A stretch of 42,917 bases of DNA, taken from Opitutales bacterium. Lineage in GTDB: Bacteria; Verrucomicrobiota; Verrucomicrobiia; Opitutales; Seribacteraceae. Below, piece after piece: positions 6,645 through 42,917 of the stretch. The notes under the pieces are model-generated. The model was not told the DNA's origin. It searched no databases and worked only from the letters and a program-made list of their open reading frames with translations. The DNA lies in assembly GCA_029252505.1 (NCBI GenBank), contig JAQXBH010000109.1, positions 1 through 42,917 on the forward strand. The letters run 5' to 3'. Position numbers and translations under genes: made by a program. How positions within the stretch are numbered: position 1 is the first letter of the stretch; the number at the start of each line of letters is the position of its first letter.

Positions 6645-6648
6645 TATT

Positions 6649-9471
6649 TTAATATAATAAAAGTGCAGGATCGCTAGCCAGCATAGTTGCCGCAACCTGA
6701 GTCCATGCGGCCACCTCTTCTGAATGAAGATTTTGATCTACAGCAGAAAGCCCTTGCTCCATTAGTTTTAATGCATCGCTGGGATTCTCGGAATAACGAG
6801 CCTTTGAATTTTGGAGTAATTCAGAAAGTGCCTCGATTTCGATCGATTTTGGTTTTCGTGAGGTGAGCAATTCGAAAAGATAATGAATCCGTGCAGTATC
6901 TTGCCTAGAATGACGAATCAAGCGTTCGGCCAATTTGCGGGAAGCTTCCAATCTTTGGGTTTCATTTAAAAGGGCCAAAGATTGAAGAGAGGTACTGGTT
7001 CGGGAGCGCTGCACACAACTGGACTCCCGGCTGGGGGCATCAAACAGGGACATCATGGGGTGTGGGGATGTGCGCTTCCAATACATGTAAAGACTGCGAC
7101 GATAAATACTGTCATCCATATCCATCTTATAGTTCTTAGTATCACTATTGGGATGGGACAAGGCGATCCACATGCCAGAAGGTTGGTAAGGCTTAAATCC
7201 TTCTCCTCCGATCTTACGATTGAGCAACCCGGAAGACCAAAGAGAAAGGTCTCGCACTACTTCTGCATCCAAGCGGTAGGAAGGCCCCCTACCCCAGTTT
7301 CTGTTTTCGGGATCAGCGAAATCCACCCGACGGGCGGAGGATTGCCTAAAGGTTCGGCTGGTCAGAAACTGAGTAAGTAAACGTTTAAGATCCCAACCAT
7401 TATCCCGAAAGTCCACCGCTAACCAATCAAGTAGTTCAGGGTGAGTGGGGTGTTCGCCTTGTAATCCAAACTCCTCAGGAGTGCGCACTAGACCTTCGCC
7501 GAAGACCATCAACCAAAACCGATTGACCAAAACCCTGGAGGTTAGAGGTTGCTCGTCACTGGTGATCCAGTTAGCCAAGCCTAATCGATTGGAAGGACTC
7601 CCTTCTTTCATCTTGCCCAAGACTGCAAACACTCCGGGATTCAAGGCTTTGCCGATTGGCTTTGTATATTCCCCACGCTCCAAAATCTTGGTCTCCCGCC
7701 TGCTTTGCTGCGGTAAGTCGCGGGCAATAAGTGTAGTGGTAAGGTAATTCTTTTCGGAGTTTATTCTCTCGGTATTCAACACCTGGGCACGGGCAAGTAG
7801 ATCATCCTTTGCAATCACATCTTTCTTGAGAAGTTCAATCTCCGCGATTTGCATTTCCTTAGAATAAACATCCACTAACTTGGGAAAGGTCAGGCGGTAA
7901 TGGTTGTAGGATAAATTATTATCAAATAAGATTTCCTTCGTTTGGCGGCGCCTGGTAAAACTAGGCACTTCTCCCTCTGAAATCAGAGAAAAAGCCTTAC
8001 CATTGGTCGAGCCTTCCAGTTTGTAAGTCTTGGGATCACGACCGGGAGCATCCTCAGCTGAAGTCAGGCTTAACCCAGCAACGAATCCCAACCGGGTAGT
8101 AATGGTTAACCCGCTTCCATTTCCATCCCGATTTAAATACTTAGTGCCAGGTCTATCATCAATTGCATGCTCTGGTTTTTGGTTTCTGGGAGAATTAGCG
8201 GAGCTACCTCTTACCTTGTTTCCAGGTTTAGAAAGATCAGCATTGAGCAAATCGGTAAGTGAGGAAAGACTGTGATCTTTCCCACTGTATTTCGCCGATT
8301 TCTTAACTTCTTCTAGAAAATCCGATTCTTTCTTGAGAAAATCGTTCCATTTCTTTTTCGACACTGGATCCTTTGCCACAGTCATATGATCGCCGTAAAC
8401 ATACTTGTTTCTATCCATCGATTCTTCTGCTGTATTGTTGAAAAAAGCAAGAAACTCAAAGTATTCCTGATGAGTGATCGGGTCGTACTTGTGCGTGTGA
8501 CATCGTGAACAGGTAAGGGATAAGCCAAGCAACGCAGTTCCAGTTGTTTCCACCCGGTCAAAATTGTTCTTTGCCTGTAATTCTTGACGAATTGCTCCAC
8601 CCTCACCCGATGTGGGATTCAAGCGTACATAGCCAGTGGCAACTTTTTGATCCTCCGAAGGATTGGGCATCAAATCCCCAGCCAATTGGAAACGGATGAA
8701 TTCATCGATCGGTTGATTATCATTGAGCGCACGCACCACCCAATCCCGATAAGGATATATCCCCCGACGGTTATCGAGGTGCAATCCATGGGTATCCCCG
8801 TAGCGTACTGCGTCCAACCAATAGCGGGAAACATGCTCTCCGTAGTCGACTTTCGAAAACAAGCGAGCGAGAAAACGCTCATAGGCACCGGGCTTATCGT
8901 CACTTAAAAATTCATTCAACTCCACTGGTTCGGGGGGTAAACCGTTAAGAGTAAGAGACGCTCGCCTTGCCAAAGTCGCTCGGTCCGGTTCCTCGGCAAA
9001 ACCAGATCCTGCTCTCTTCAAACCACGGGCAATAAAATGATCGACTGGATTGCCTGTTGGTTGCACTCGCCCTTTGCTCGGGGCAACAAAAGACCAATGT
9101 GGGGCATACTCGGCACCCGACTTTACCCAATCCGCAATTAATTTTTTCTCTTTAGCGGACAAAATTTTCCCAAAGTCCTCAGGTGGCATGGGGTCATCCT
9201 CATCAGCAATCCGAAATAGGAGTTCACTTTCCTTGAGGTCATTCGGATCAATTGCATGGTAGCCACCCAGATCCTTCTTTGCTAATTCCTCTAGATCGAG
9301 TCGGACCAAGTCTTTCTTTTTTGTGTCCGGTCCATGACAGGCAAAGCACTTGTCGGAGAGGATGGGTAAAATTTCGCGGGCGAAGTCTATTGATGTATCT
9401 CCTCCGGCCAAAAATGAGACAGAAAAAAATGCACCTATAATAAATGGCAGTATTTTACTTCGAATTAACAT
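6649..9471 (-). CDS. PSD1-type protein: planctomycete cytochrome c + DUF1549 + discoidin-like + DUF1553
   Basis: A 940-residue secreted protein. A signal peptide (residues 1-23) is followed by a cytochrome c-like segment with haem motif 'CFACH' (42-46). DUF1549 spans about 120-340 ('RRASLTLNGLPPEP', 'YWLDAVRYGDTHG'), and ends with a second possible haem motif 'CSRCH'. About residues 420-540 look like an F5/8 type C (discoidin) carbohydrate-binding fold ('TYKLEGSTNGKAF', 'MQIAEIELL'). DUF1553 follows ('TSRVLVNRFWLMVFGEGLV') and closes with 'VAATMLASDPALLLY'. This is the standard PSD1 layout. The function is unknown; roles in polysaccharide handling at the cell surface have been suggested for these families. 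It is the first gene of a two-gene operon with DUF1501. Confidence 0.92.
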   Translation of the reverse strand: MLIRSKILPFIIGAFFSVSFLAGGDTSIDFAREILPILSDKCFACHGPDTKKKDLVRLDLEELAKKDLGGYHAIDPNDLKESELLFRIADEDDPMPPEDFGKILSAKEKKLIADWVKSGAEYAPHWSFVAPSKGRVQPTGNPVDHFIARGLKRAGSGFAEEPDRATLARRASLTLNGLPPEPVELNEFLSDDKPGAYERFLARLFSKVDYGEHVSRYWLDAVRYGDTHGLHLDNRRGIYPYRDWVVRALNDNQPIDEFIRFQLAGDLMPNPSEDQKVATGYVRLNPTSGEGGAIRQELQAKNNFDRVETTGTALLGLSLTCSRCHTHKYDPITHQEYFEFLAFFNNTAEESMDRNKYVYGDHMTVAKDPVSKKKWNDFLKKESDFLEEVKKSAKYSGKDHSLSSLTDLLNADLSKPGNKVRGSSANSPRNQKPEHAIDDRPGTKYLNRDGNGSGLTITTRLGFVAGLSLTSAEDAPGRDPKTYKLEGSTNGKAFSLISEGEVPSFTRRRQTKEILFDNNLSYNHYRLTFPKLVDVYSKEMQIAEIELLKKDVIAKDDLLARAQVLNTERINSEKNYLTTTLIARDLPQQSRRETKILERGEYTKPIGKALNPGVFAVLGKMKEGSPSNRLGLANWITSDEQPLTSRVLVNRFWLMVFGEGLVRTPEEFGLQGEHPTHPELLDWLAVDFRDNGWDLKRLLTQFLTSRTFRQSSARRVDFADPENRNWGRGPSYRLDAEVVRDLSLWSSGLLNRKIGGEGFKPYQPSGMWIALSHPNSDTKNYKMDMDDSIYRRSLYMYWKRTSPHPMMSLFDAPSRESSCVQRSRTSTSLQSLALLNETQRLEASRKLAERLIRHSRQDTARIHYLFELLTSRKPKSIEIEALSELLQNSKARYSENPSDALKLMEQGLSAVDQNLHSEEVAAWTQVAATMLASDPALLLY

Positions 9472-22558: not shown

Positions 22559-25500
22559 CTAGCGGTTGAAAAGAAATGCAGGTGTGTTAATTAAAGCCCA
22601 TGTCAAATCCTGAACAGCGATCAGTCTTTTATTTTGCAAGTGCCCATTGCTTAGTGAAACGGCTCTGCGTAACCGAGCAACCTCAGGGGGCAAGGGAATC
22701 GGTTTCTTTGCCTCAGTTAAAACTCCCTCCAGTTTTACTAGTTGAGGATCTTTGGGATGTGGTTTGCTTACTTCCGCAAGCTGTTTGGTAAGTAATGCTC
22801 TCTCGGGATTGCTCTTCTTGAAGGCGTCGGAAAGAGTTTTGAGCTGTTCTGAACTACGCTTATTTCTAGCAACCGCAAAGATGCCTTTCACATTTTCAGG
22901 CAACCCAAAAGAAACCGGAGGTGGAACATTGGTAACTGCTAATCTAAAGCGTCCAAGAGAATGCTGACCGCTTTGAAACTGCTGCTTCAATGTAAGAGTT
23001 AAGTCAACAGGTCCTTTAAAGATAACCTTACCCTTAACCTGAAAGGAAGCAAAATGAACCTTGCCCATTTGAGGAGAAATGGCCCATCCATTTCGACTGG
23101 GAGCCACTTTACCATCGACGGCCGAGACCACAGGGTATCCACCTTGACTAAATGTGGCCAAGGAGTTTTCAAAGGAAAGTTTATGGGGAGCTTCATTTCG
23201 GTATAACTTAAGCGAACGGATTGCTACTCCATTATCCAATAGAAGCTGAATACCCTTTAAATCTTGTAGAGAAACAAAATTGAGTCGATATGATTTCCAA
23301 TTACTTGATTTAAGAATCTTCAATCCTGAGGAAATATTTTTTGGAGAATAGGATCCCGGCTCTGTTTTCCATCCCACTTTAGCAACAGCAGATTTCTTTG
23401 CCTTCGCCATAAATTCGATCGCAAAACTTCCCTTTTTATAAGAAAGATCAATGGCTAGGCTTGGCTTGAAAGTTTGGCCTGCTCCAGATTTGTAGTAAAA
23501 CCCTGATGGTCCCCCCCCATTATAAATTTTAAGAAGCACAAGATTTCGTCCTTTATTCAAGGTAAGAGTTATTTTTTCCTGATCTGGGGCTGCGGCTCTT
23601 CCAATATTATTTTCCAAAACCAACTTGCCGTTAAGATAAACTTTAATTCCATCATCACTACCTAAGTTCAAAGGGATTTTTGTCGGAGCATCTGAGTTAA
23701 TTACTTTCATTAAATAATTTGATGAGTTTTCAGCTGAAAACACAGTGCCGTATAACACCCCTTCTTTCCAATCTGGCCTTGCCTTCCAATTATGCTGAAT
23801 ATCACCATGATTAAAAACCTTATTCTCATCAAAAGCGTAGTCGAGTTCAGGACCTGCCTTGTCATCAAAGCCTACCCCCTTAAAAGGTCCGACATGATAA
23901 AAACCTCCTGATCTAACCCTCCCATTTGGTACGCTCTGAGATAAAAGGAGACTTTCATTTGAATCATGAAAATTTGTTTGAATTCCAGCTTTCCATTTGT
24001 TTTTTCCGCCTTTCGTTCCAAAATTCCAATCGTCCTTTACCTCCCAATTTTTCAAATCATTCGAAGGTTTTGCATGAACTTCGAGTTCAGTAAGAACAAA
24101 ATTCCCATCCCCAGGAGAACGACCCGGGCCTTTTTTGGGAAGCCTAGCGTCGGTCATCGCCTCCACTCGGACTCCTGTTATCGAGGACAAATGGGTGGTC
24201 GTTTTTACCACATAACTACCCTTTGCACTTCGACCTCCCACAAATACGGATCCATCTTTTTGATTTTCAAATTTGACCCCAGGCATTTGGGAAGTGACTT
24301 TCCCCAAGTCCAAGTTTTCCCACTTACTTATCCCTTGCGAATATTCATCTTCCCATTGAGCCAATCGTGCGGGGAGCGTTTGATCAAATAAGGAAACTGC
24401 ATCTTTTGCTTTTTTGATTTCCAGTTTTCGCTTTTCAGTGGCTACCTTAACTGCATGTGCAGTTTTTTCTCTGTAATCATTGATCTCAGCATTGGCCCGA
24501 CTGATCGCAAGTTTTCTCTCTCTTTCCTTAGCGTCAAGCGATTCTTTTATACCCCTCTCTTCTTCTTTCAATTGTTTAGTCAAACCTTGATGGTCATGTT
24601 GCAATTGATCAGCAAATAATTTCAGGCTTTGTTCGATCTCATTCTTCGATGCCGGTCGGTTGAGTATACGAAGAAATAAATTGTTGATTAATTTATGATC
24701 ATCCTTTTGAGCGTTTGCCATTTTCGCGACTGCATTGTTGGGATCTGAAATCGCGTTATTTACAGTAGGTCCACTTACAAGAGCCATAATCGGTCCCAAC
24801 TGGAGCTCACCATTACGTTCACATTCACAGGAAGTTTCACGAGCAGGACGACCGAAAGTACTCAAAAAACCGTCTGATAATTTAATTCCCACATCCGGTA
24901 AGGATGCCGCACGCGTCCCCGAAGGAACTCCTGGAAACTTAGTCACAGACCCCGTTACACGATATACCGCATCGAGCAGGGTTTCAGCTGGCAAGCGTCG
25001 AGGATGGGCATGAGAAAAATTAATCTCATCGTCCTCGTTCCATTTGCTCGATTCAACAGAAAGTTGATAGGTATTAGATTTACATATTAGCTTGATGATA
25101 TGCCTGACATTAAATCTACTTTCTATGAATTCTTTCTCCAAATAGTTCAAAAGCGCAGGATTGCTTGGTGGATTACCAGCCCGTATATCATCAATAGGTT
25201 CGATAATTCCGACCCCAAAAAGATAACCCCAAATTCGGTTTACATAACTTCTCGCAAAGTAAGCGTTATCGGGTGAAGTCATCCATTCGGCTAACTTTGT
25301 ACGACGAGACATCTCTGGTTTAGCCTTAAATTTGACGGGATAAGGAAAGTCAGGTGCAACAACCTCACCAGTCCTCTCATGCTTAACCTCGCCGATTTTG
25401 ACATCCTTAACAAATTCGTAAAGTGGTTTTCCTCGCTCTACCGCAGTCTTCCCGATTTCGTTTTTACCCGAAGCTGGATCTTTTTCCAATTTAAATTGAG

Positions 25501-28432
25501 CAAAATGAGCGGCCATTTCATAGTATTGGTTTTGCGTCCATCGTTCGAAAGGATGATCGTGACATTTATTACAATTAAATCGAGTGGCCAAAAATAAATG
25601 GGTCGTATTCTCCATGGTGTCTTCAGGCGTCCTCAGTATTTTAAAATAGGATGCCGGTGGGTTTTCCTTATTAGAACCTGTGGCCGTCAAAATTTTTCGG
25701 ACAAATTGATCATAAGGAGTGTTATTTTTAATTTCTCCTCGTATCCATTTCCTTAATTGTGTGGCTCCCGCACGACCAAGAAATTTTCCGTTTACCTGAA
25801 GTAAATCAGACCACTTGTTAGTCCAGTGCTCGACAAACTCTTCACTCCCCACCAATTGATCGATAAGATGGCCACGCTTTTCGCTGCGTGGTTTTTTGAG
25901 ATCCACAAACTGAAGGACTTGTTCTGCGGTGGGAGGTAGTCCAATCAAGTCCAAATAAACCCGACGAATAAAATCAAGATCATCACTTATTACGGATGGA
26001 AGAATTTTCATTCTTTTCCACTTCTCTGCAACAAATTGATCGACTGGATTGTTCACTTGGGGCTCGATCCACTGAAAGCCCTTACGATTCCCCATAACGG
26101 TCATGGTTGTGGCTGCATAGCAACCTTCGTAACGAGCGAGAATGGGTGCTTCGCCCCTCCGAAGCGAAGTGAGTAAACCAAAATTATCATGCTCTGCAAC
26201 TTCTCCATTTCCACTTGTAATAAAAGCCTCTCGAGTGACATCCCTCCTAACCCCGTTCTTAAAAGTCGCAACGACACGCATTTGTTGTTTAGAGCCAATA
26301 TTCGAGACCACCGGATCATTCGGAAATAATTCAATTCTGCTTACTCGAACTCCCTTCTCGTTAAGAGAAGCCCCAGCTGCGATCCATGAGCGGATCACCT
26401 GATAGTATTTTGACTTTTTATCGGTCAGTTTACCACCTTCATGTGCAACGCTCCCTGAGGCCTTCAAAAGCATTAAGCTACTATCAGGTGCGGCTACACT
26501 AACTCTTCGACAAGCCATATCGTCTGAAAAACCACGAACATCAAAGACCGCATCGTAACCTCTTAAGGAAAGTTTAAACCCATTCTTCCCGTCTTTCGCG
26601 CCGTGGCAAGTCCCTGCATTGCAACCAAGTTTCGATATAATGGGATTTACATCTTCAATAAAGTCAGGAGTCCATTTTTTTTGCATTCCGCTCACCTTGA
26701 CTTGAACAGTTTTCTTCTTTCCACCAACACTTGCCGTAAGATTTCCTGAACCATTTTTCTGTGGAGTGAACAAACCTCGATGGTTCACCTTACCGAATTC
26801 TCCCTCGATACTCCATTTCGCCATTCGAGTTACATCAACAAATTCACCGTTGCCTAAATCCGCGGTCAAAAGCAATTGAGAATAATCGATTGATCTGGTT
26901 ATTGAAATCTTACCTGGTCGAACGATAAGATTTTTTACTTCGAGCCCCTTCGCAGGCAACTCAACATTGGGGAGAGGCGGGTCGCTTTCCATTTGTGTCA
27001 TTACATTACTTAATTCCTTAGTCGCCTTCCTGTTCAAAGGAACTGATATAAACTTTTTAATAATTTCCCCCGAAGAAACCTTGTGCAGACGAACGAGTCC
27101 ATCATATCCTCCCGAAGCCAAGGTTTTTCCGTCGGGAGAACATGCAAGTGAATAGATTGGTGATTCGGAGACTTGCCTCCTCCATAGTTCCTTGCCCGAT
27201 TCAATCTCAAAGCAAGAAATTTCTCCTTTCCCATTCAAACTGCTTCCAGCAAAGCCAAGGTTTCCTTTAATATTAAAGCAGACTGAGAAAATTCTCCCTA
27301 TTTGCGATTTATATTCACGGATTTGATTGGGGTTTCCTCCACCCGCCGGAGCCGCCTTGGTGGCTTGTCTAAATAATTTTGGTTTACCATCAGCACCTCC
27401 CACTAACAACTCAGTTTTCCCGGGTCTTACCGCGATTGAATTCTGCCCTCCACTCAAAATTCCGGGTGTGTGGGTAGTTACATTACCAATAAACCTTTCT
27501 GACTTTACATCCGTTTGCTTTACCGTCTTGTCACGACTGACAGAAAAAATCGAGTTTCCATCTTCCGAAAAAACAGTCCCTCTCACCCAGTCATCATGTC
27601 CCGACATGTAGGAAACCTGTTTTCCATCATTGGACTGAATAACTCGAACTGATGAATCACTCCCTCCAAAACCGAGCAATGCTCCATCCGGTGACCACGA
27701 AACCCCGTATAATGTATCGTAAGTTACGGAGTGTGATAATTTTAATTTTTGGGCTCTCCAGTCCCAAACCTGAACCTCCCCCATTCTTCCAGGTTGCCCT
27801 CCCGCTAAAGCGAGGCTCTTTCCATCCGGTGAAAAAGTAACCGATTCAATTCGCTCAGACATCCCAACCAATCTGTTTACAATCGAACTTCCGTCTGATT
27901 TGTATACAATAGCTTCATGGAAACCAGAGAGAGCAAGGTGCCTACCATCTGGAGAATAATCGAGAGAAAGAATTAACGGTGGTATTTCATAAATGGGAGG
28001 ATTTTCAATACTATATTTAGGCCCGGAATTGGCAGGAGAATCATCTTTCGCTCCTTCTTCAATCCACTGTACTATTTTTTGGTACTGATCAGGGTGCAAT
28101 GCATTTGCACTTTTTCCTTTCGGCATCTCAGACGTTCCGTCTGGTTTAATCTTGATTTGATCGATAAGATAACTCCCAGCAGGATTGCCAGGTACAATTG
28201 CCAGTTTACCCGTTTCTCCTCCCCTCAGTAAAGATTGGAAATCAGTCATTAGATAATCTCCCTTCATTTTTGCAGGTTGGTGGCAACCATTGCAATTGGC
28301 CTGAAAAACAGGTCGGATATCATTATAAAAACTAATCTCATTCGCCTCTTCTGCCCCGCAAATAAAAGACAACAAAAAGCCACAAATAAAATGGTAAAAC
28401 TTGTTAGAGAACTTTCGAACGAAATGAGGCAT
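22559..28432 (-). CDS. giant PSD1-type protein with WD40 repeats, three haem-like motifs and an inserted carbohydrate-binding-like block
   Basis: Start placed at the ATG at 28432, which gives a proper signal peptide; the track start at 28474 adds 14 residues. Numbering here follows the 1971-residue track ORF. In order: haem motif 'CNGCH' (61-65); WD40-like propeller, about 165-470 ('SLDYSPDGRHLALSG', 'SVSWSPDGALLGFGG'-type blades); Ig-like BIG2 segment ('WSIEGEFGKVNHRGLFTP'); a 'CNAGTCH' motif near 616; a second Ig-like segment; DUF1549 (about 815-1020) with 'CNKCH' near 967; DUF1553 ('FARSYVNRIWGYLFGVGII'); a charged coiled coil (about 1310-1390); and beta-rich modules including a PA14-like 'NLGSDDGIKVYLNGKLVLENN'. 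The usual DUF1553 ending 'DLTWALINTPAFLFNR' comes only at the extreme C-terminus. First gene of a five-gene run. Confidence 0.9.
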   Translation of the reverse strand: MPHFVRKFSNKFYHFICGFLLSFICGAEEANEISFYNDIRPVFQANCNGCHQPAKMKGDYLMTDFQSLLRGGETGKLAIVPGNPAGSYLIDQIKIKPDGTSEMPKGKSANALHPDQYQKIVQWIEEGAKDDSPANSGPKYSIENPPIYEIPPLILSLDYSPDGRHLALSGFHEAIVYKSDGSSIVNRLVGMSERIESVTFSPDGKSLALAGGQPGRMGEVQVWDWRAQKLKLSHSVTYDTLYGVSWSPDGALLGFGGSDSSVRVIQSNDGKQVSYMSGHDDWVRGTVFSEDGNSIFSVSRDKTVKQTDVKSERFIGNVTTHTPGILSGGQNSIAVRPGKTELLVGGADGKPKLFRQATKAAPAGGGNPNQIREYKSQIGRIFSVCFNIKGNLGFAGSSLNGKGEISCFEIESGKELWRRQVSESPIYSLACSPDGKTLASGGYDGLVRLHKVSSGEIIKKFISVPLNRKATKELSNVMTQMESDPPLPNVELPAKGLEVKNLIVRPGKISITRSIDYSQLLLTADLGNGEFVDVTRMAKWSIEGEFGKVNHRGLFTPQKNGSGNLTASVGGKKKTVQVKVSGMQKKWTPDFIEDVNPIISKLGCNAGTCHGAKDGKNGFKLSLRGYDAVFDVRGFSDDMACRRVSVAAPDSSLMLLKASGSVAHEGGKLTDKKSKYYQVIRSWIAAGASLNEKGVRVSRIELFPNDPVVSNIGSKQQMRVVATFKNGVRRDVTREAFITSGNGEVAEHDNFGLLTSLRRGEAPILARYEGCYAATTMTVMGNRKGFQWIEPQVNNPVDQFVAEKWKRMKILPSVISDDLDFIRRVYLDLIGLPPTAEQVLQFVDLKKPRSEKRGHLIDQLVGSEEFVEHWTNKWSDLLQVNGKFLGRAGATQLRKWIRGEIKNNTPYDQFVRKILTATGSNKENPPASYFKILRTPEDTMENTTHLFLATRFNCNKCHDHPFERWTQNQYYEMAAHFAQFKLEKDPASGKNEIGKTAVERGKPLYEFVKDVKIGEVKHERTGEVVAPDFPYPVKFKAKPEMSRRTKLAEWMTSPDNAYFARSYVNRIWGYLFGVGIIEPIDDIRAGNPPSNPALLNYLEKEFIESRFNVRHIIKLICKSNTYQLSVESSKWNEDDEINFSHAHPRRLPAETLLDAVYRVTGSVTKFPGVPSGTRAASLPDVGIKLSDGFLSTFGRPARETSCECERNGELQLGPIMALVSGPTVNNAISDPNNAVAKMANAQKDDHKLINNLFLRILNRPASKNEIEQSLKLFADQLQHDHQGLTKQLKEEERGIKESLDAKERERKLAISRANAEINDYREKTAHAVKVATEKRKLEIKKAKDAVSLFDQTLPARLAQWEDEYSQGISKWENLDLGKVTSQMPGVKFENQKDGSVFVGGRSAKGSYVVKTTTHLSSITGVRVEAMTDARLPKKGPGRSPGDGNFVLTELEVHAKPSNDLKNWEVKDDWNFGTKGGKNKWKAGIQTNFHDSNESLLLSQSVPNGRVRSGGFYHVGPFKGVGFDDKAGPELDYAFDENKVFNHGDIQHNWKARPDWKEGVLYGTVFSAENSSNYLMKVINSDAPTKIPLNLGSDDGIKVYLNGKLVLENNIGRAAAPDQEKITLTLNKGRNLVLLKIYNGGGPSGFYYKSGAGQTFKPSLAIDLSYKKGSFAIEFMAKAKKSAVAKVGWKTEPGSYSPKNISSGLKILKSSNWKSYRLNFVSLQDLKGIQLLLDNGVAIRSLKLYRNEAPHKLSFENSLATFSQGGYPVVSAVDGKVAPSRNGWAISPQMGKVHFASFQVKGKVIFKGPVDLTLTLKQQFQSGQHSLGRFRLAVTNVPPPVSFGLPENVKGIFAVARNKRSSEQLKTLSDAFKKSNPERALLTKQLAEVSKPHPKDPQLVKLEGVLTEAKKPIPLPPEVARLRRAVSLSNGHLQNKRLIAVQDLTWALINTPAFLFNR

Positions 28433-28516
28433 ACAACCAATACTGATCTCAATTAATCTCGAGACAAGGGTCAAAGGGAGATTTATAAAATTAAAATCCT
28501 TGAAGATAGTTATAAT

Positions 28517-32798: not shown

Positions 32799-34910
32799 CT
32801 AATCAAGTGGGATAATATGAGCAGCGTCCACAATTACATAACCTTCAGTATCCTCATTAAAAACTTTCAGATCGTATTTTTCTCCTTTTTTGAAAACAAA
32901 AGAGCCTAATGAATGCCATAAATTATCTGTACTGCCCTCTTTCCTCTGATCTACCATTACAGAAGATAATTTTTTTTCATCCTTAATTTCATATCTAACT
33001 TTTCCTGCTCGGTTGGCAGAAGCTACATATGAAACCATTATTTCATGCCGTCCTTCTTTAGGTGCCTTGAAAGGAAAGCAAGCGGTACGCATCCCCTTCC
33101 CTCCATTACCGTCATGGAAATAAGAATTGCCCACAAAAGGACGCAGTGAAGTACTTTTGACCCACTCCCCCTCGAAGCTTAAATTTGTACCATCCACCAC
33201 CAGACCGCTCATTTGGGCTGGATCGATTCCGCGCCCATACGCAACACGGTTTGATTTTTCCAATTCAATCACTTGTCCATCCTCAACCAATCGAGTTTTT
33301 AACTTGTCATAGGAGATATCCTGAACGGGAATATCCTCCTCGATCGCAAGAACGGCGGCGGTGGCGGCAGACTGGGCTAAAATCATAAAGACTGGTTCCA
33401 TCCGAATTGAGCCAAATGCGATATGGGAGGAAGAGAGACAAATTGGAACTAACAAGTTACTGCACTCGTCAGCCTTAGGAATAATGGAGCCATAAGAAAT
33501 TTGATAAGGCTCGCCCGGATGAACCTGTACATCGCCCTCATTTTGAACATATGCCATACCGTTTTCATCTTTGGCTACATAGCGCTGAACATGATGGGAA
33601 TCCATTGTGTAAGAGCCCATTCCAATGGATCGGGGGGTCTCTGATTTCCCGCGCAGATTCAATTCAGTAATTACGAAATTACTGACCATACGCCTGGCTT
33701 CTCGCACATAAATCTGGTGGGGCCAATGACCATTTAATTCAAATTCGTCTTTCGCCAATCCCCAGGTGTTCATTCTTTTACGAATATCTTCAGGCACACG
33801 AGGATCATTACATAAAAAATAAAAATAGCCTTTTTGATACCTTTCATGCTCGAGGATAATTTCCGCCCGCTCCCGATAACCCGCTTCTGGGTAAAGATAA
33901 TTCATTCCGATATTATCTGTGCTGAATGGACCATGGTTATTAGTATCTGTCTTGCCATTCGGAATCGGGTCAAATTTCCCAAATACATGAGTGGAACCCT
34001 GCACCAATGTACGTAGTAAGAGTTCGTACTGTGCGGGATCATACTGGTCAGGCCTTGAAAATGGAATTCGATTTTCCTCCACTTGAGTTAAACACAAACG
34101 AAAATTATAAGCCTGCATTTTTGAATCTCCCTGCCCTTCTTCACCAGGTAATTGGGAACTAATCCTGGATAACAAGCCACTGCTCGGATCCCCTTTTATT
34201 ATAAAGGGGTCAACTTTCCCATTAAATTGATGGGATCGTGCATTTTTAGTCTGCACACCACTTAATGATTCACCATAAACTGAGTTCCCTTCTCGTCCCA
34301 CGAAATAGCTTACTCCCGCAGAAGCCATAAGGTCTCCCTCGTAAGTACAATCGAGAAAAGCGGATCCATTGTAAGTATTTCCGGAAAGGGTAGATATTGA
34401 GATAATTACCCCACCCTTTTTTTGAACACCATTAGTTCGGTCCAACTTTTCCTCCCGGTAGACCTCTAATTCATTTTCCTTCACCCATGATTCAAAAATC
34501 AATTCTGCAACATGTGGTTCAAAAATCCACATTGTCCTACGGTCTCCATCAATTGCAGGGGCACCCTGACCTCGGTTGCCATACTCTTCCATTTTTTGCC
34601 ACCTCCACGAATCAACGCTTTGGTAATGCCTCCATACTCGATGATAAAAATCGCGAGCTATCCCGCCAATTGCTTCTTTCTTCCCACTATCTGTCCATCC
34701 TAAACCACTGCTTGAAAGACCACCTAAGTGTTGATCGGGAGAAACCACCACCACTGATTTCCCCATTTTCTTAACCTGTACCGCAGCACTAATTGCGGAT
34801 GAAGTGCCCCCATAAATAACCACATCATGGGTATACGACTTTTCTGCCAAAGCAAAAAAGGAAGTGACTAAAAGGAATGTAGTTAAAAATGTGGTTCGGA
34901 TCATAAGCAA
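32799..34910 (-). CDS. exported FAD-dependent oxidoreductase with golvesin-like C-terminal domain
   Basis: 703 residues. A signal peptide (1-22) is followed by a FAD-binding Rossmann segment 'HDVVIYGGTSSAISAAVQVKKMG' (about 28-50) and the family region 'HLGGLSSSGLGWTDSGK'. This is the FAD_oxidored family pattern. Residues about 575-703 form a beta-rich module: 'SYFHDGNGGKGMRTACFPF', 'SNRAGKVRYEIKDEK', 'LWHSLGSFVFKKG' and 'TEGYVIVDAAHII' match the golvesin/xanthan-lyase C-terminal domain, a likely polysaccharide-binding part. The reaction is unknown. Transcribed leftward, 66 nt before the sigma-factor gene, and divergent from the haloperoxidase gene across a 194-nt AT-rich gap. An internal start at the second or third codon (MIRTTF) is equally possible. 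Confidence 0.9.
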   Translation of the reverse strand: MLMIRTTFLTTFLLVTSFFALAEKSYTHDVVIYGGTSSAISAAVQVKKMGKSVVVVSPDQHLGGLSSSGLGWTDSGKKEAIGGIARDFYHRVWRHYQSVDSWRWQKMEEYGNRGQGAPAIDGDRRTMWIFEPHVAELIFESWVKENELEVYREEKLDRTNGVQKKGGVIISISTLSGNTYNGSAFLDCTYEGDLMASAGVSYFVGREGNSVYGESLSGVQTKNARSHQFNGKVDPFIIKGDPSSGLLSRISSQLPGEEGQGDSKMQAYNFRLCLTQVEENRIPFSRPDQYDPAQYELLLRTLVQGSTHVFGKFDPIPNGKTDTNNHGPFSTDNIGMNYLYPEAGYRERAEIILEHERYQKGYFYFLCNDPRVPEDIRKRMNTWGLAKDEFELNGHWPHQIYVREARRMVSNFVITELNLRGKSETPRSIGMGSYTMDSHHVQRYVAKDENGMAYVQNEGDVQVHPGEPYQISYGSIIPKADECSNLLVPICLSSSHIAFGSIRMEPVFMILAQSAATAAVLAIEEDIPVQDISYDKLKTRLVEDGQVIELEKSNRVAYGRGIDPAQMSGLVVDGTNLSFEGEWVKSTSLRPFVGNSYFHDGNGGKGMRTACFPFKAPKEGRHEIMVSYVASANRAGKVRYEIKDEKKLSSVMVDQRKEGSTDNLWHSLGSFVFKKGEKYDLKVFNEDTEGYVIVDAAHIIPLD

Positions 34911-35104: not shown

Positions 35105-36355
35105 ATGAAAAATACATTCTACCTTTTACTGTTATATTTAAATACTATTTTACTATTTGGAAAACCAACCGAACTCATTGAATGGAGATCAGAATTTTTA
35201 AAGGCAGTACGCGAAGAATCTCTTTCACCAAACCTAATGGTTAGAAATTTGGCTATTTTTTCAATTTCCGTTCATGACGCAGTAAATAGTCTAGAAAAAA
35301 AGTATCATCCTTATCTAAAATTCCACAATCATGATCTCAAAACATGGGATTTAAACTCGGTGGTTGCAGGTTGTGGAAGCTATTTAGGAAAAAGCCTTCA
35401 TCCAGCAAGAGCGGTAAACTTTGAAAAACTTGCCTATTTTACCAAGAGAGAAAATTCTGAAGTGATGGATAAATCCTTTTTATTCGGCCGACAGGTAGCT
35501 CGATTTATGTTACAATACAGAATAAACGATGGAGCAACTACCACTGTAACCTACATTCCAAGAACAAGTCCAGGATTGTGGAGAAGAACTCCAAACTTTT
35601 TTCGCCCACCTGAACAACCTCATTGGAGAAAAGTAAAAACATTCGCAATTAAATCATTAGATGATTTCATGCCCCAACCACCTCCCCATCCAACAGATAA
35701 ACTATTTCTAGATTCCCTAAAGGAAGTAAAAATCTTAGGTAGTAAAGACAGCCAAATTCGATCAAAAGAACAAACTTTCATTGCCCAGTTTTGGAAAGAC
35801 TTCAGTTATACCCAAACTCCACCGGGCCATTGGAATGATATTGCGACAGAGTTATGCAAGGCAGAGAAGTATAGCTTGATTGAAGAAGCCAGAATATTTG
35901 CAATGCTTAACATTGCACTCGCGGATAGCGGTATCATTTCATGGGAGTGCAAGTACCGTTATCATGTATGGAGGCCAATTCATGCCATACGACATGCTGA
36001 TCAATTCCCACAATCTAAAAAATATGCAAATAAAGAATGGGATTCACTACTTGAAAGCCCGGCACATCCAGAATATGTGTCCGCACATAGTTTTTTTTCG
36101 GGAACTGCCTCTACAATTCTCGCCATGATTTACGGTAATGATGAATATAAATTTAGAGTTAAAAGCGACCAGTTCCCAAATCAAAAAAGGGAATTTAATC
36201 GTTTTTCTTCCTGTGCCGAGGAAATAGGTTTAAGTAGGTTATATGGAGGTATTCACTACCGATTTTCAAACGATAGAGGTATTGAAAGTGGAAAAAAGCT
36301 AGGAATGTTCATTTATAAGCAAACCTTAGGACCCTTGACAAAATCTAAAAAATAA
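35105..36355 (+). CDS. vanadium-dependent haloperoxidase / PAP2-superfamily protein, exported
   Basis: 416 residues with a signal peptide (1-19). The three vanadate/phosphate-binding motifs of the superfamily are in order: 'KYRYHVWRPI' (K283, R290), 'EYVSAHSFFSG' (S326, H328) and 'SRLYGGIHYRFS' (R378, H384). All expected ligands, including the proximal histidine H384 and the acid-base histidine H328, are kept, so it may be an active vanadium haloperoxidase or an acid phosphatase; sequence alone does not decide. The second motif has SAHS where many relatives have SGHS. 'WNDIATEL' before motif one is also common to bacterial members. It lies 17 nt before the giant secreted protein, so the two are probably cotranscribed. 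Confidence 0.88.
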   Translation: MKNTFYLLLLYLNTILLFGKPTELIEWRSEFLKAVREESLSPNLMVRNLAIFSISVHDAVNSLEKKYHPYLKFHNHDLKTWDLNSVVAGCGSYLGKSLHPARAVNFEKLAYFTKRENSEVMDKSFLFGRQVARFMLQYRINDGATTTVTYIPRTSPGLWRRTPNFFRPPEQPHWRKVKTFAIKSLDDFMPQPPPHPTDKLFLDSLKEVKILGSKDSQIRSKEQTFIAQFWKDFSYTQTPPGHWNDIATELCKAEKYSLIEEARIFAMLNIALADSGIISWECKYRYHVWRPIHAIRHADQFPQSKKYANKEWDSLLESPAHPEYVSAHSFFSGTASTILAMIYGNDEYKFRVKSDQFPNQKREFNRFSSCAEEIGLSRLYGGIHYRFSNDRGIESGKKLGMFIYKQTLGPLTKSKK

Positions 36356-36372
36356 CATCTAAAATTTACATT

Positions 36373-39300
36373 ATGCGCCTATATGTCCTAACAATACTTT
36401 ATTTTATAACAATTTTTAAATCATTTTCAAATAACCAGCGGATAGTTGGAGATATGAACGGAGATGGAATTGTAAACCTAGTTGATACCATCAAAATGGT
36501 GAATCATATTCATGGTACAGGTTTTACAACCGAACTTGAGACTTTAAAATGGCAGGCGGATATTAATGGAGATGGTCTCGTGAATTCTTTTGATGTAGAA
36601 AGTTCATTAGAGTTTGTCTTTAAGCGCGAATCAATCAAGTCGCTCCCTTTCGCAGGAATTATTAATACATTTCCTTACGCAGGTGAAGGTGATATCTCAC
36701 TCACGAGAGAATTTGTCATTCACTTCAACATGCCCCTTGCACAGGGCACTGTCTTAACTAATGAAGCTTTCTTTGCTTATTCAGGGGACAGTCTACAAGT
36801 TACATCCGCCAGGCTTTCTTCAGACCGTATGAAAGCGACTCTTTTCTTGAACGGTTTTCGCTGGCCGTCCAATTCGACAGTAACTGTTACCCTTAACGGC
36901 GGAGGATTAACGGATTTTATAGGCAGGGGCATTGATGTCGATGGAGACGGCGTAGAAGGTGGAATTAAAACTTGGACTTTTTCAACTCTGGGTGTTGAAG
37001 CAAGTGACCCCTCTACAATTGTTGAAGGTCAAGTTTTTGATTCTGATAATTCAAATGGAGAAAAACCTTTGCATGGAGTTCTCATTACTGTCGTTGGAAA
37101 TGAGGAGGCTATGAGCGTATTAACCGATTCAAATGGAAGTTTCCAACTTTCCTCAGCACCTATAGGAAGATTTTTTGTGATGGTGGACGGACGCTTAGTG
37201 GGAGCCCCAAATGGAGAGACGCTCAGTCAAGGTTCATGGAAAGATAGAGATTATTACACCTTCGTGGGCAAGGCGTGGGAAGCCGTGCCAGGGAAAACAG
37301 TAAAAGCCACCAAGTACGGAAAGTTTGCAGAAAACGGCACCTACATAGCTGATTCCAGAGATGGAAAAATATTCTTACCGTTAGTAAAAAAAGGTGCCCT
37401 TAAGCCGGTTGATGCCACAAAAAAAACGAGTATTTCCTTTGCATCGGGATACTTGGATGGAAACGATTCGAACCTTATGTCGATGCTGGCTGCTACTTCT
37501 ATTACCATCCCTCCAGGCTCGTTACAATCAGATGATGGTACAACTGGTGGAAGTGTGGGCATGGCTCCCGTTGCTCCTGATCGTTTACCCGAACCTTTAC
37601 CCGAAAGTTTAAAAATGCCTTTGGTCATTACCATTCAAACAGATGGCCCTTCCAATTTTGATATCCCTGTGCCCGCGCGATTTCCCAATGTCGACAACCT
37701 CCCTCCCGGTGCAAAATCTGCCTTATGGAGTTTTGACCACGATACTGGAGTGTGGGAAATCTCTGGCCCGATGACAGTAAGTGCCGATGGTAAATTCCTT
37801 GAAACTGACCCCGGCGTGGGAATTCGCCAACCAGGATGGCATGGATCTTCACCAGGTGCTCAAGTTTTTGGCAAAGCTGTTACGACAGGCCCTAGTATTA
37901 CAAAACCTAAAAAAGGAGCTTGCGGACTGAGTCATGCATCTATGTCGATTACCGAGGGAGATTTTACTAACTTGGGCAGGCTATCCGAAGGAATAGAAGA
38001 GACCATTTTCGGACAAAATGAGAGTGATCTTAGTTTTACGAAAGATGTACTCGGTGCTGGAAATCGCTTTGGTAATACTCAAAATGCGGGAGGTAGCGAC
38101 TGGAATCAATTTCGAACGCACGCGGAAAAAGATGCAAAGCTCCATGCTACCATTTCCCGTACCGTTTCGACCTTGCTTGGTTCAGAAGATTTTTGGACGA
38201 CTTTCTCAACCACCGCTTCTACAATAAGAGACAATGCAATTATCGCGTCAAAAAATAGTTCCGCTCAGACCAAGATAAATTCTGCTCATCAGGTATTTCT
38301 TAGCGATTTAAATCGGGCAAAAGCAAAGATTTCTAGTCAAATCAGCAAATGGGAAAATTACTCGGTTTCACTCTCCGCATTAATTGGCCAAACCACAGGA
38401 ATCTCAGGACATGCTGTCTTGCAGACTGACAGAACCCTTATTGCAAAGGAAATTAGTTCCACATTAAAAGCATACCGTTCTATCCCGGGAGGAAATAGTC
38501 GACTCGATAAACAGCTCAAAAAATTTGCTCAATCATGGCAAAAATTCCTCCAAGCCACCCTCAATGGAAACCTGCACCTTTACAAAGGAGAATCATTTGT
38601 TTTCTTAAAGAGAATTGGTTCCGAAGCCGAAGAAACTCGTGTGCCTCCGATTGCGGCTCAAAGAATTAGGGTTGGAACTGGTGGATCCTATGACGCAATC
38701 GTACGTCCAAACAGCTGGTATGAAGCATGGATGCTCGAACCGACCACACTAGTCATTGGTTCAACTACTTTCATCTCCCCCCGCAATGGAGGGAATGGTC
38801 CTGTGCCTCCCATCCCCCTCTGTCATGACGACAAACCAGACAGTGACTTTGACTATCTGAGTGACCGGGGTGAACGGATTGTCGGTACTAATAAAAGCCA
38901 GCCAGACACCGACGGGGATGGAATACCAGACGGATTCGAAATACTCAACGGAACCGACCCGAGTGGTGGAAATCCTGTTTTTACCGGCATCCTAGCTACC
39001 ATTGCTCCCACTCGCGGTTTTTCCGATTTTGTTACTACCGGAAACGACCTTGCCATTCTTGGTAATGGGCCAAGTGGAGTGGACATATTCGATATTGGAT
39101 CTGGAGTTCGTCCAATCAAACAATCCACTTTTAATACCCCAGGCTCGGTTCGAAAAGCTGCCCTGTCTGAAAATTATCTGGTCATTGCGGATGGAAAAGC
39201 AGGACTCACAGTTCTCGACCTGACTAGTATAGAAAGTCCCTCACAAGTATGGAACATCCCACAGGAATCTCCTGCAAACGCGGTTGCTGTGGCTGGTAAG

Positions 39301-42300
39301 ATCGCGTTTGTCGGATTGGAAAATGGGAAAATTAAGAGTTATGATCTTTTTAGTGGGCAAAAAATCGATGAGATTGGCTTAGGTCAAACCATCGAAGATC
39401 TCGGAATGAATGGGGATTCGCTCTATGCCCTCGAGAATGTTCAACGACAAAGAAGCCGATTACATTCTGTTCCTACATTCAACGGCCGTTTTAAAGACGA
39501 TGATGGTCCATTTCTTCCCCGCAACTCAGTAGATACTCCAGGACATCGTCAATGGGGACTTAAAAACGGATTAGGACGAAGACTTTTTGTTGGAGACGAC
39601 TTTGCCTACGTAACCGACTTAATGGGTTTCAACCGTATAGATCTTTCAGATCCTACAGTTCCAGTTCGAGCGGAAAGAACCAAAACACCTTCACGCGGTT
39701 GGCGTCAGACAGTTTCCAATGGGTCTGGTCTAGCTATTGTTCTTGAACATCGAAACAGCCCTAAATTTGCGAAAGCTGATCCAAGTATTTATACAGTTCA
39801 AAATAATGGAGATTTTTTACGAGCGGGTGGATATATGAAAAACTTTGAAACTCGTTTCCCCACTCCCGGCAATGCAGGTGCGGTCTCGATCTACAACGGG
39901 CTTGCCTATGTCGCTGACGGAACCAAAGGTCTACAGGTCGTCAATTACCGGGCGTATGACATTAATGGAGTCAAGCCTACCCTGTCAGTCACCTTAAATG
40001 ATATGAACGGAACGGTGGAAGAAGCAAAACTCCTTACACTACGAGCTTTCGTTCAGGATGACATCCAGGTTAAAAATGTGGACTTCTTTGTAGACGGTGA
40101 AAAAGTTTTCGTCGATGGAGGCTACCCATTTGCACATACCCTCGAAGTTCCTCTTCGCAAAGATCAGGCAACCCTTCGTCTCCGCGTGATTGCCAGAGAT
40201 ACAGGAGGAAATGAAGCCTACTGGCCCGGTCCTGGTGCAAGTAATGAACATACCCTAACTATTGCCGACGATTTGGTGCCTCCCCAAGTAGTGACTTATT
40301 TTCCCCGGGAAAACTCAACCGTTTTACCGGGAGAAACAGTAGTCGCAGTTTTTAATGAGCGCATGGCACCCGACTCGATCCATGTACGGTCAATTAGGTT
40401 GGATCGTCTTAATGACAATAATACATCGACTCCAATTGAACTTGCTTCCGTTGTGTACGACGATGCGACTCAATCCGCCTACGCCACCCTTCCCGCAACT
40501 CTTCCTCCTGCAAAATATCAATTGTATGTGAACGAACTCGCAACCGATTTACCTACTAATGCCCTCAAAACTCCGGCTCCTGTTCGTAACTTATTTGGTC
40601 CCAGTGAAATTCATGGCAAGTTTTGGTTCGATCGAAATCATAACACGGTGCAAGACACAGGAGAAGAAATTCTTAAAGAATGGACTGCATTTCTTGACTA
40701 TAATAACAATGGTGAACTCGATACCGGTGAGCCTAATGCCACTTCTGACCAAGCAGGGAACTACTCCTTTACGAATCTCTACCCTGGTGGATACTCCGTT
40801 TCGGAGGTATTGCCACACGGTTGGACTCAAACATTCCCGAAAGGACAAAACCTTGGTGCAACAGAACAATTTACAAATGTGGGCTGGATCAGTGAGAGTG
40901 ATCAATCTGCAAATCAGACTTTTGCAGTTGATACCCTTGGAAACGGATGGACTGCCGGTATTGTTCCCGACGGAAATTTCTCCATTGGTTCAACCAATTT
41001 TGATGGTAATGGTACCGCCGGACAACTTTTTATAGCGAGGGTAGCCCCCACCGGATTAGTGAACAAGGTTGTCACATTAGGAAATCCCGACATTAATAAT
41101 ACAGGTCTCTCTCCCAACCTCATTATCAAGCCGGATAATGATGCAGGTATTTGGTTAACCGGATCTTTTTCGGGTAATGGACTTTCTATTCCAGGAACTG
41201 TTTTAGATGCAAATAACACCACTGCTTTTGCAACCCGTTTTGATCAGGACTTCAATGCAAGCCTCACTACCGTTTTAACAAATTCTACTATTTTTGACCT
41301 TTCTCCTGATCCCGATGGACGAGTCGCAATTGCCGGGACATTTACTGGTTCAACAACGATGGGAACTACTACACTCACTTCCAGTGGGGGAACGGATGCA
41401 TTTATTGCCAAAATTGCTTCCACAGGAAAAATTGCTTGGGCAAAATCACTTGGGGGCAGTCAATGGGAATCGGTTCAATCTATCTCAACCGATGTAAATG
41501 GGAGTCTATGGATAGCGGGCGATTCGAATTCATCCAATTTTACAGCCAATACAACAAACCTTGACCTGTCTGGAAATGCTGGTGGCTACCTTGCTATGTA
41601 CAATCAATCAGGCTCAAACTTATGGGCGATTGATCCAATTGGTCAAGTTAGCTTACTCAATGATGGTTCTGCCGCATGGTTCCTTGATCAAAATGGTTCA
41701 ACCTTCCTCATTAAGAAAGTATCCGCGAGCGGTACGATTACTTCAATTACATCCATTACTGGTTCTATTGTAACCGATCTGCTTTCCACGACTGATGGAG
41801 GCGTCAATGTATCACTCTCCACCACCTCAGGAACAATTAGTGTCAATGGAGTAAATGTCTCTGCAAGCACAGGCAACAGTGGACTGCTATTGAAACTAAA
41901 AAGTAATGGTGACTTAGCGTGGTCTATCCCACTCTCTACGAATGGCTCCGATTCAATAACTCAACTTGCCCGTGGTTCATCACCTGACACTTGGGCAATG
42001 GGTACTGTGGGCACAACCAATCAATCACTTACCTATGGCACAAAGACCATTGACTTAAATTCTTCTACCGGAGTTCTCTTAAAAATCGATCCGATCGGAG
42101 AGGTTACTTCCATATGGGCAATTCCTGTGGTGGGTAATCTCTATGTAGATGTGAACGATAATGTCTGGGTAACCGGAAATAATAGCGGAGATCCGGGACA
42201 AACGAGGTCGATTACAATTGGTGCCCTGCCCCTTCAAACAGAATCGGCAAAGGGTAATTACATCGGACGAATTGGTCGTGCGGGTTCGGAATCCCATACC

Positions 42301-42917
42301 ATTCAACTTGGCTCTGGTGAAATCCAACAAAATAAAAACTTTGGAAATTCCCTACCGCTCATCGAAAACAGAAAAGCGATCTGTGTGGGAGGACCCAATG
42401 AAGATGCTTCACGCTCGGTGGTTACTGACTCAGCAGGTAATGCGTACTATGCCGGTGATTTCACAGGCCATACAGAATTTGGTGGTCGCAAGCTTAAGAG
42501 CGACGGGCAAAACGATGCCATGTTTGTTAAGTTTCTCCCCAATGGAAAAATTGACTGGGCTAAAAACTTTGGTGGAGATGGCGACGATCTTGGCCATGCA
42601 ATCTTTGCAGATGATAACGGTACCCTCTTTGCCTCAGGCACTTTTCAGGGAACCGCCAAGTTCGGGGACTTTACCTTAGTATCGGCGGGCATGCGCGATA
42701 TTTTTGTTCTCCGTCTGGATGATAATGGTACTCCAACCCATGCCTTCCGGGCAGGCGGCCCACGGGATGATGATGCATTTTCTTTGGTCGCAGATTCCAA
42801 TAACTCCGTTTATGTCGGCGGTGCAATTGAACAAACCGCTGATTTTGGTGCTTACCAACTCACCAGTCAGGGAAATCGAGATGCCTACCTCCAAAAATTA
42901 GACTACAACCTGTCGGC
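36373..42917 (+). CDS. giant multidomain secreted protein, 3' end outside the window
   Basis: The frame is open from ATG 36373 to the window edge (2181 complete codons read, no stop), which is why the ORF track omits it; the small track ORFs here are shadows. After a signal-like N-terminus (MRLYVLTILYFITIF) comes a dockerin-type pair of calcium loops ('GDMNGDGIVNLVD' at 27-39, 'ADINGDGLVNSFD' at 62-74). Then follow: Ig-like Big_5 segment (about 97-210); carboxypeptidase-regulatory-like segment ('VEGQVFDSDNSNGEKPLHGVLI', about 217-275); helical region (about 660-770); thrombospondin-3-like calcium loop 'PDTDGDGIPDGFE' (about 850); LVIVD-like propeller (about 877-1190); second Big_5 (about 1300-1395); SdrD-B-like segment (from about 1410); SBBP-type propeller repeats (about 1510 to the end). 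Likely an adhesin, scaffold or surface-layer-associated protein. Confidence 0.9.
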   Translation, partial: MRLYVLTILYFITIFKSFSNNQRIVGDMNGDGIVNLVDTIKMVNHIHGTGFTTELETLKWQADINGDGLVNSFDVESSLEFVFKRESIKSLPFAGIINTFPYAGEGDISLTREFVIHFNMPLAQGTVLTNEAFFAYSGDSLQVTSARLSSDRMKATLFLNGFRWPSNSTVTVTLNGGGLTDFIGRGIDVDGDGVEGGIKTWTFSTLGVEASDPSTIVEGQVFDSDNSNGEKPLHGVLITVVGNEEAMSVLTDSNGSFQLSSAPIGRFFVMVDGRLVGAPNGETLSQGSWKDRDYYTFVGKAWEAVPGKTVKATKYGKFAENGTYIADSRDGKIFLPLVKKGALKPVDATKKTSISFASGYLDGNDSNLMSMLAATSITIPPGSLQSDDGTTGGSVGMAPVAPDRLPEPLPESLKMPLVITIQTDGPSNFDIPVPARFPNVDNLPPGAKSALWSFDHDTGVWEISGPMTVSADGKFLETDPGVGIRQPGWHGSSPGAQVFGKAVTTGPSITKPKKGACGLSHASMSITEGDFTNLGRLSEGIEETIFGQNESDLSFTKDVLGAGNRFGNTQNAGGSDWNQFRTHAEKDAKLHATISRTVSTLLGSEDFWTTFSTTASTIRDNAIIASKNSSAQTKINSAHQVFLSDLNRAKAKISSQISKWENYSVSLSALIGQTTGISGHAVLQTDRTLIAKEISSTLKAYRSIPGGNSRLDKQLKKFAQSWQKFLQATLNGNLHLYKGESFVFLKRIGSEAEETRVPPIAAQRIRVGTGGSYDAIVRPNSWYEAWMLEPTTLVIGSTTFISPRNGGNGPVPPIPLCHDDKPDSDFDYLSDRGERIVGTNKSQPDTDGDGIPDGFEILNGTDPSGGNPVFTGILATIAPTRGFSDFVTTGNDLAILGNGPSGVDIFDIGSGVRPIKQSTFNTPGSVRKAALSENYLVIADGKAGLTVLDLTSIESPSQVWNIPQESPANAVAVAGKIAFVGLENGKIKSYDLFSGQKIDEIGLGQTIEDLGMNGDSLYALENVQRQRSRLHSVPTFNGRFKDDDGPFLPRNSVDTPGHRQWGLKNGLGRRLFVGDDFAYVTDLMGFNRIDLSDPTVPVRAERTKTPSRGWRQTVSNGSGLAIVLEHRNSPKFAKADPSIYTVQNNGDFLRAGGYMKNFETRFPTPGNAGAVSIYNGLAYVADGTKGLQVVNYRAYDINGVKPTLSVTLNDMNGTVEEAKLLTLRAFVQDDIQVKNVDFFVDGEKVFVDGGYPFAHTLEVPLRKDQATLRLRVIARDTGGNEAYWPGPGASNEHTLTIADDLVPPQVVTYFPRENSTVLPGETVVAVFNERMAPDSIHVRSIRLDRLNDNNTSTPIELASVVYDDATQSAYATLPATLPPAKYQLYVNELATDLPTNALKTPAPVRNLFGPSEIHGKFWFDRNHNTVQDTGEEILKEWTAFLDYNNNGELDTGEPNATSDQAGNYSFTNLYPGGYSVSEVLPHGWTQTFPKGQNLGATEQFTNVGWISESDQSANQTFAVDTLGNGWTAGIVPDGNFSIGSTNFDGNGTAGQLFIARVAPTGLVNKVVTLGNPDINNTGLSPNLIIKPDNDAGIWLTGSFSGNGLSIPGTVLDANNTTAFATRFDQDFNASLTTVLTNSTIFDLSPDPDGRVAIAGTFTGSTTMGTTTLTSSGGTDAFIAKIASTGKIAWAKSLGGSQWESVQSISTDVNGSLWIAGDSNSSNFTANTTNLDLSGNAGGYLAMYNQSGSNLWAIDPIGQVSLLNDGSAAWFLDQNGSTFLIKKVSASGTITSITSITGSIVTDLLSTTDGGVNVSLSTTSGTISVNGVNVSASTGNSGLLLKLKSNGDLAWSIPLSTNGSDSITQLARGSSPDTWAMGTVGTTNQSLTYGTKTIDLNSSTGVLLKIDPIGEVTSIWAIPVVGNLYVDVNDNVWVTGNNSGDPGQTRSITIGALPLQTESAKGNYIGRIGRAGSESHTIQLGSGEIQQNKNFGNSLPLIENRKAICVGGPNEDASRSVVTDSAGNAYYAGDFTGHTEFGGRKLKSDGQNDAMFVKFLPNGKIDWAKNFGGDGDDLGHAIFADDNGTLFASGTFQGTAKFGDFTLVSAGMRDIFVLRLDDNGTPTHAFRAGGPRDDDAFSLVADSNNSVYVGGAIEQTADFGAYQLTSQGNRDAYLQKLDYNLS

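Follow-up and report, generated by a model that had tools for sequence, protein, structure and literature searches.

The 42,917 nucleotides analysed here (the window), which are positions 1 to 42,917 of contig JAQXBH010000109.1 in assembly GCA_029252505.1 from an Opitutales bacterium of the family Seribacteraceae, end inside a gene for a giant, probably exported protein that begins with a dockerin domain. A comparison with related genomes suggests that this giant is held through its dockerin by a cohesin protein, which is encoded in the next gene and would sit at the cell surface. The two proteins would form a cohesin-dockerin complex of the non-cellulosomal kind in which the giant is the cargo or a fibre, and we assign a probability of roughly 0.6 to this reading, which was built on sequence comparisons. 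The original prediction had proposed that the giant itself may be a surface scaffold; this is not the best reading, because the chain carries a dockerin, i.e., a plug, and no cohesins, i.e., sockets, and the cohesin lies in the next gene.

The cohesin-dockerin clip is familiar mainly from cellulosomes, in which it serves for assembly. The occurrence of both domains, counted when they scored over the Pfam cut-offs, was compared in 42 genomes of the family and in 373 genomes of the order Opitutales. The window's own genome (G000), which is 87% complete, has one dockerin and one cohesin. Cohesin was found in four genomes of the family, dockerin in seven and both in three (p = 0.011), and across the order the respective numbers were nine, 35 and seven (Fisher p = 1.1e-6). 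Moreover, in six of the seven co-carrying genomes (G000, through a presumed contig join, G004, G048, G070, G119 and G138), the two domains are encoded within about 10 kb of each other, and the gene settings differ. The giant is followed by the cohesin gene in G004 and, given the join, in G000; a dockerin protein, a protein of ~415 residues and a cohesin protein follow one another in G048 and G070; and an FG-GAP dockerin protein adjoins a cohesin protein in G048 and G119, with the same gene order in G138 as in G119. Such co-occurrence and linkage is the pattern that is expected of cognate pairs, and binding between the two domains is predicted. A non-cellulosomal cohesin-dockerin pair should have both partners in one genome and linked, which is what was found, with the linkage in the window's own genome depending on the presumed join.

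The window contig (C143) terminates exactly at position 42917, and the giant gene is therefore truncated by the assembly and not by a stop codon. Another contig of the same genome, C85, begins within the C-terminus of the giant, with 387 codons that are 57% identical to the ortholog in G004, a genome of another genus, and because of this ortholog we infer that C85 follows C143. On C85, a gene for a 336-residue protein with a cohesin, a PKD domain and a tryptophan-rich (Trp-rich) domain lies 27 bp past the giant's stop codon, and three more genes come after it, for a pentapeptide-repeat, an InlB/Trp-rich and a cut coiled-coil protein, all on a single strand and with gaps of <30 bp. This cohesin scored 47.6 bits against Pfam PF00963 (cut-off 24.1), and the Opitutales cohesin profile matched 22 distinct sequences in the PDB, all of which are cohesin-bearing by name (cellulosomal proteins), with a best E of 1e-13. 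A similar arrangement was found on one contig in G004, in which the product of the gene directly after the giant's stop codon combines a cohesin and a PKD domain with a Trp-rich domain and an InlB repeat; the gene that comes next has relatives among the outer-membrane barrels. The order of giant C-terminus, cohesin and pentapeptide protein in G024 is that on C85, which brings the genomes with the giant followed by the cohesin gene to three (G004, G024 and, via the joining of contigs, the window's own). In G025, G032 and G011, relatives of the pentapeptide and/or InlB proteins were followed by an outer-membrane-barrel relative. A C-terminal sorting signal (type IX, PEP-CTERM or LPXTG-like), which the original prediction proposed to look for beyond the window, was recognised neither in the 3' end recovered on C85 nor in the C-terminus of the G004 ortholog. 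The type IX domain Por_Secre_tail had zero matches in the whole genome and none in the recovered C-terminus, and the giant's end, ...GDFDSDQVRKDFSLDN, has no PEP-CTERM or LPXTG motif on inspection and no NCBIfam sorting-domain match.

The prediction of a frame that stays open from the ATG at 36373 to the right edge was borne out: translation gave a single frame on the + strand (36373-42917) with 2181 codons and zero stops, and an open-ended listing of open reading frames gives the gene as 36373..42915 with an open 3' end. In another species of the same genus, an ortholog whose protein is 94% identical stays open for 2026 codons up to the end of its own contig. Over these 2026 codons, 485 of the 632 base changes fall at third codon positions, and the ratio of nonsynonymous to synonymous substitution rates (dN/dS) is 0.08, which identifies the giant as a real, constrained gene. 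Further orthologs with 62-67% identity were found in three more genomes, and a complete ortholog in G004, on a 237-kb contig, has 3697 residues; scaled to it, the window's giant would be about 3,400 residues long. That the long frame is an artefact of the assembly or of the reading frame has next to no chance of being right: the contig end falls inside the gene, and the giant-bearing contigs of four relatives (G011, G025, G026 and G039) likewise break there, but the 94% identical ortholog with its dN/dS and the complete ortholog rule it out. G011 holds two near-identical giant N-termini (L028:3-3254; L029:2760-3132), one after an outer-membrane-barrel gene and the other after a haloperoxidase gene, which points to either a duplicated giant or an assembly chimera.

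The layout of the giant, as far as it lies in the window, is as follows:

36373..42917, + strand: gene for the giant exported protein, first 2181 codons (the C-terminal 387 codons are on C85)
36373..36432, + strand: probable signal peptide, a hydrophobic N-terminal stretch (residues 1-20) seen in the sequence and present in all of the orthologs
36448..36597, + strand: type I dockerin (residues 26-75; Pfam PF00404, PDB dockerins and alignment)
36658..36987, + strand: immunoglobulin-like (Ig-like) domain Big_5 (residues 96-205; Pfam, over the cut-off)
37021..37185, + strand: CarboxypepD_reg/transthyretin-like domain (residues 217-271; Pfam, just under the cut-off; not among the originally predicted modules)
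37360..37812, + strand: conserved module of ~150-170 residues (about residues 330-480), with no Pfam match
38905..38961, + strand: TSP3-like calcium repeat (residues 845-863; Pfam 23.2 bits, just under the 25-bit cut-off)
39139..39222, + strand: LVIVD beta-propeller repeat (best stretch, residues 923-950; Pfam, over the cut-off)
39976..40173, + strand: Ig-like Big_7 (residues 1202-1267; Pfam, over the cut-off)
40621..40839, + strand: SdrD_B (residues 1417-1489; Pfam, over the cut-off)
42409..42822, + strand: SBBP-type beta-propeller (residues 2013-2150; best match CylK, E 6e-10)

This layout agrees with the prediction of a giant, secreted-looking, multidomain protein. Among the predicted modules, Dockerin_1, Big_5, Big_7, LVIVD and SdrD_B were recovered over their cut-offs and TSP3 fell just short, while SBBP had no Pfam call in the window protein and stands through the CylK propeller match and through the ortholog, in which it is over the cut-off. 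The dockerin scored 28.8 bits against PF00404 (cut-off 22.9), has two complete DxNxDGxxNxxD calcium loops (F-hand) and matched the PDB dockerins 4dh2, 2y3n and 6kg9; in the alignment of dockerins, the out-of-frame row for L122 was disregarded. Beyond the portion in the window, the full ortholog additionally has LamG, RCC1 and InlB-like parts, and Pfam recognised no catalytic domain in either the window part or the full ortholog. The conserved module is the best-conserved part of the giant and recurs with 47-63% identity in other Opitutales dockerin proteins, several of the proteins with it also having an N-terminal dockerin. The great length of the giant and its mix of Ig-like and propeller domains might suit a surface scaffold, but there is no cohesin or other known socket in the chain, the sole known docking element of which is the one N-terminal dockerin, and we regard this alternative as highly improbable. 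Another protein with a similar head, of 2290 residues (L101:8951-15823), combines dockerin, CarboxypepD_reg and the conserved module with DUF6531 and RHS repeats, and a separate TSP3-LVIVD-Big_7-Big_5 gene comes next; the dockerin head is the same and the payload is different.

The Trp-rich domain that closes the cohesin protein in the window's genus has ~95 residues and the pattern GWxxxxWFGxF...WIYHExLGWLY...WFW...GWxWTS...PY...WLY...YDYS. The window's own genome contains 22 distinct copies (L130-L151), 17 of which end <=14 residues from the stop codon, and further loci with the domain are L006:58-3030, L016:628-3519 and L082:2-3904. In the cohesin protein, it ends three residues from the stop codon in G000 and zero residues from it in G024. 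Every one of the 42 family genomes has matches to the cohesin protein, mostly in the region of the Trp-rich domain, and among 388 sampled genomes of the phylum, the Trp-rich profile matched seven, six of which belong to the order Opitutales. Searches of Pfam, NCBIfam and the PDB returned no relative of the domain, and it was not found in the giant's window part, in its end on C85 or in the orthologs that were read. Domains that sort or anchor exported proteins typically stand at the C-terminus, occur in many copies, are confined to one lineage and are shared by proteins with nothing else in common, and the Trp-rich domain is a candidate for such a role in the Opitutales families. Taken one step further, this would describe an unreported display route in which the Trp-rich domain anchors exported proteins and a cohesin that carries it recruits a dockerin-headed giant of >3,000 residues, for which no anchor is known; anchor and giant would leave the cell one by one and be joined only after export. 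We offer this extended proposal tentatively and consider it rather doubtful. A second giant, of 3285 residues, is encoded on contig C142 of the same genome (L030:8668-18525); it contains FG-GAP, Big_9 and cadherin-like domains, matches the window's giant in propeller regions and has the Trp-rich domain (copy L142) as its C-terminal end.

Several observations weigh against a cohesin-held giant. In the order, 28 of the 35 dockerin-bearing genomes have no recognised Pfam cohesin, and the four dockerin-giant genomes with broken contigs (G011, G025, G026 and G039) show no cohesin, though the breaks lie inside the giant. The join of C143 and C85 is presumed and leaves a gap of ~880 residues of the giant between them (~2.6 kb at the scale of G004). 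Dockerin and cohesin were assigned from their sequences, as the quality of the structure models was too low for interpretation: AlphaFold2 reached a predicted local distance difference test (pLDDT) score of 34 for the cohesin, modelled from a single sequence, and of 46 for the conserved module, modelled from four. Furthermore, in the G004 cohesin protein, the Trp-rich domain is internal (residues 257-360 of 671) and is followed by an extra InlB part, which makes the anchoring argument weaker for that genome. The dockerins that appear to stand alone are what might be expected if the dockerin were a mere calcium-stabilised N-terminal cap; the giant would then be an adhesin that is secreted freely or anchored by other means, and the adjacent cohesin would bind something else. 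This aligns with findings in the Omnitrophota, in which dockerins within a giant open reading frame were interpreted as possible adhesins (PMC10066038). However, both domains are rare and yet strongly co-occur and are linked in several independent settings. Additionally, lone dockerins may be overcounted: two genes directly upstream of dockerin genes (L122:4660-5988 and L125:3870-5183) have no Pfam cohesin but match the Opitutales cohesin profile weakly, and it is possible that they encode divergent cohesins. On balance, we consider the cap to be unlikely, albeit the alternative that deserves the most attention, and retain the cohesin-held giant.

The two domains are also the signature of cellulosomes, and complexes of this type have been proposed in Planctomycetes and Cloacimonadota, which would make the cohesin protein a mini-scaffoldin for dockerin enzymes. 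We find such a cellulosome-like complex very unlikely, since a single dockerin and a single cohesin were counted in the genome, no catalytic domain was recognised in the dockerin protein and the haloperoxidase-like protein encoded just upstream of the giant matches no dockerin in Pfam. A cellulosome proper, with a scaffoldin of several cohesins and polysaccharide-degrading enzymes that carry dockerins, does not agree with these counts at 87% completeness. The 'planctosome' of the freshwater Planctomycetes (Nemodlikiaceae) has very large exported proteins and an anchor with a cohesin and TSP3 repeats, and was proposed to be tethered to the outer membrane (PMC6461901). The Opitutales cluster resembles it in the non-cellulosomal joining of very large exported proteins through cohesin and dockerin. 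However, by the features compared, it is not a planctosome: the planctosome has dockerin peptidases, an adaptor with both domains and a lamin-tail anchor, whereas the Opitutales cluster has a dockerin giant with no known catalytic domain, a directly adjacent cohesin gene and a Trp-rich domain on the cohesin protein; among the cluster proteins, which were the ones scanned, none had a lamin-tail or peptidase domain. In the Cloacimonadota (Ca. Stygibacter), a scaffoldin with tandem cohesins and carbohydrate-binding modules (CBMs) receives several dockerin enzymes and bears a conserved C-terminal surface-attachment domain (PMC8542988). The likeness is that a cohesin-dockerin assembly was proposed outside the cellulolytic Clostridia, but the Opitutales genome has a single cohesin, a single dockerin above the cut-off and no Por_Secre_tail match. 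The cluster would thus belong to the general class of non-cellulosomal cohesin- and dockerin-like modules, within which the single non-catalytic giant partner and the adjacent cohesin gene appear to be new. In the open-licence literature, which did not cover the survey by Peer et al. (2009), no account of such a giant-cohesin cluster in Opitutales came up.

Two neighbouring genes accompany the giant:

35105..36355, + strand: vanadium-haloperoxidase-like (PAP2 superfamily) exported protein, 17 bp upstream of the giant, a conserved neighbour
32799..34910, - strand: flavin adenine dinucleotide (FAD)-dependent oxidoreductase with Golvesin_C, a divergent neighbour that is conserved also in the other genus

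The first of these, which the original prediction had placed in the haloperoxidase family, is a relative of the vanadium haloperoxidases and a predicted enzyme. Its best match was the vanadium-dependent haloperoxidase 4cit (E 1e-35), the Zobellia enzyme, and the K, R, S, H, R and H residues of the vanadate-site motifs are kept. The SGH motif of that site reads SAH in G000, G039 and G004 and is kept as SGH in G011 and G133. The gene precedes the giant in five genomes (G000, G039, G026, G004 and G011), and a different gene lies upstream of the giant in G025. In G133, which belongs to another family of the order, a haloperoxidase-like gene precedes an adjacent dockerin protein (L127:1615-3090, 3864-6941), and the linkage of haloperoxidase and dockerin is therefore not confined to the window's family. 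The FAD-dependent oxidoreductase is probably outside the complex. Elsewhere in the window (22559-28474, - strand), a 1971-residue protein with PSCyt1, WD40, PSCyt2 and PSD1 domains is encoded.

In the mechanism that we propose, one cluster would supply the vanadium-haloperoxidase-like protein, the giant and the cohesin-PKD-Trp-rich protein, to which the window's genome would add the pentapeptide-repeat, InlB/Trp-rich and coiled-coil proteins; in relatives, the gene for an outer-membrane beta-barrel occupies that position. The giant would be exported, with the calcium-binding dockerin as its mature N-terminus, followed by Ig-like domains and beta-propellers (LVIVD and SBBP, and RCC1 and LamG parts as in the ortholog). 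Outside the cell, the dockerin would then be bound by the cohesin of the protein encoded next door, and the giant would be tethered to the surface at its N-terminal end. Its propeller part, which would bind substrates or act as an adhesive, may thereby face outward and help the cell to attach to particles or polymers. The cohesin protein would in turn be held, in the window's genus, by its C-terminal Trp-rich domain, which ends many exported proteins of the family. In this uncultured lineage, a cohesin-dockerin clip would then apparently keep just one giant, a non-catalytic protein, on the cell surface. As both halves lie side by side, the predicted partner of an otherwise opaque giant can be tested directly with two small domains. 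If it is true that the Trp-rich domain sorts or anchors proteins, it would also provide a handle on how the Opitutales families display their exported proteins.

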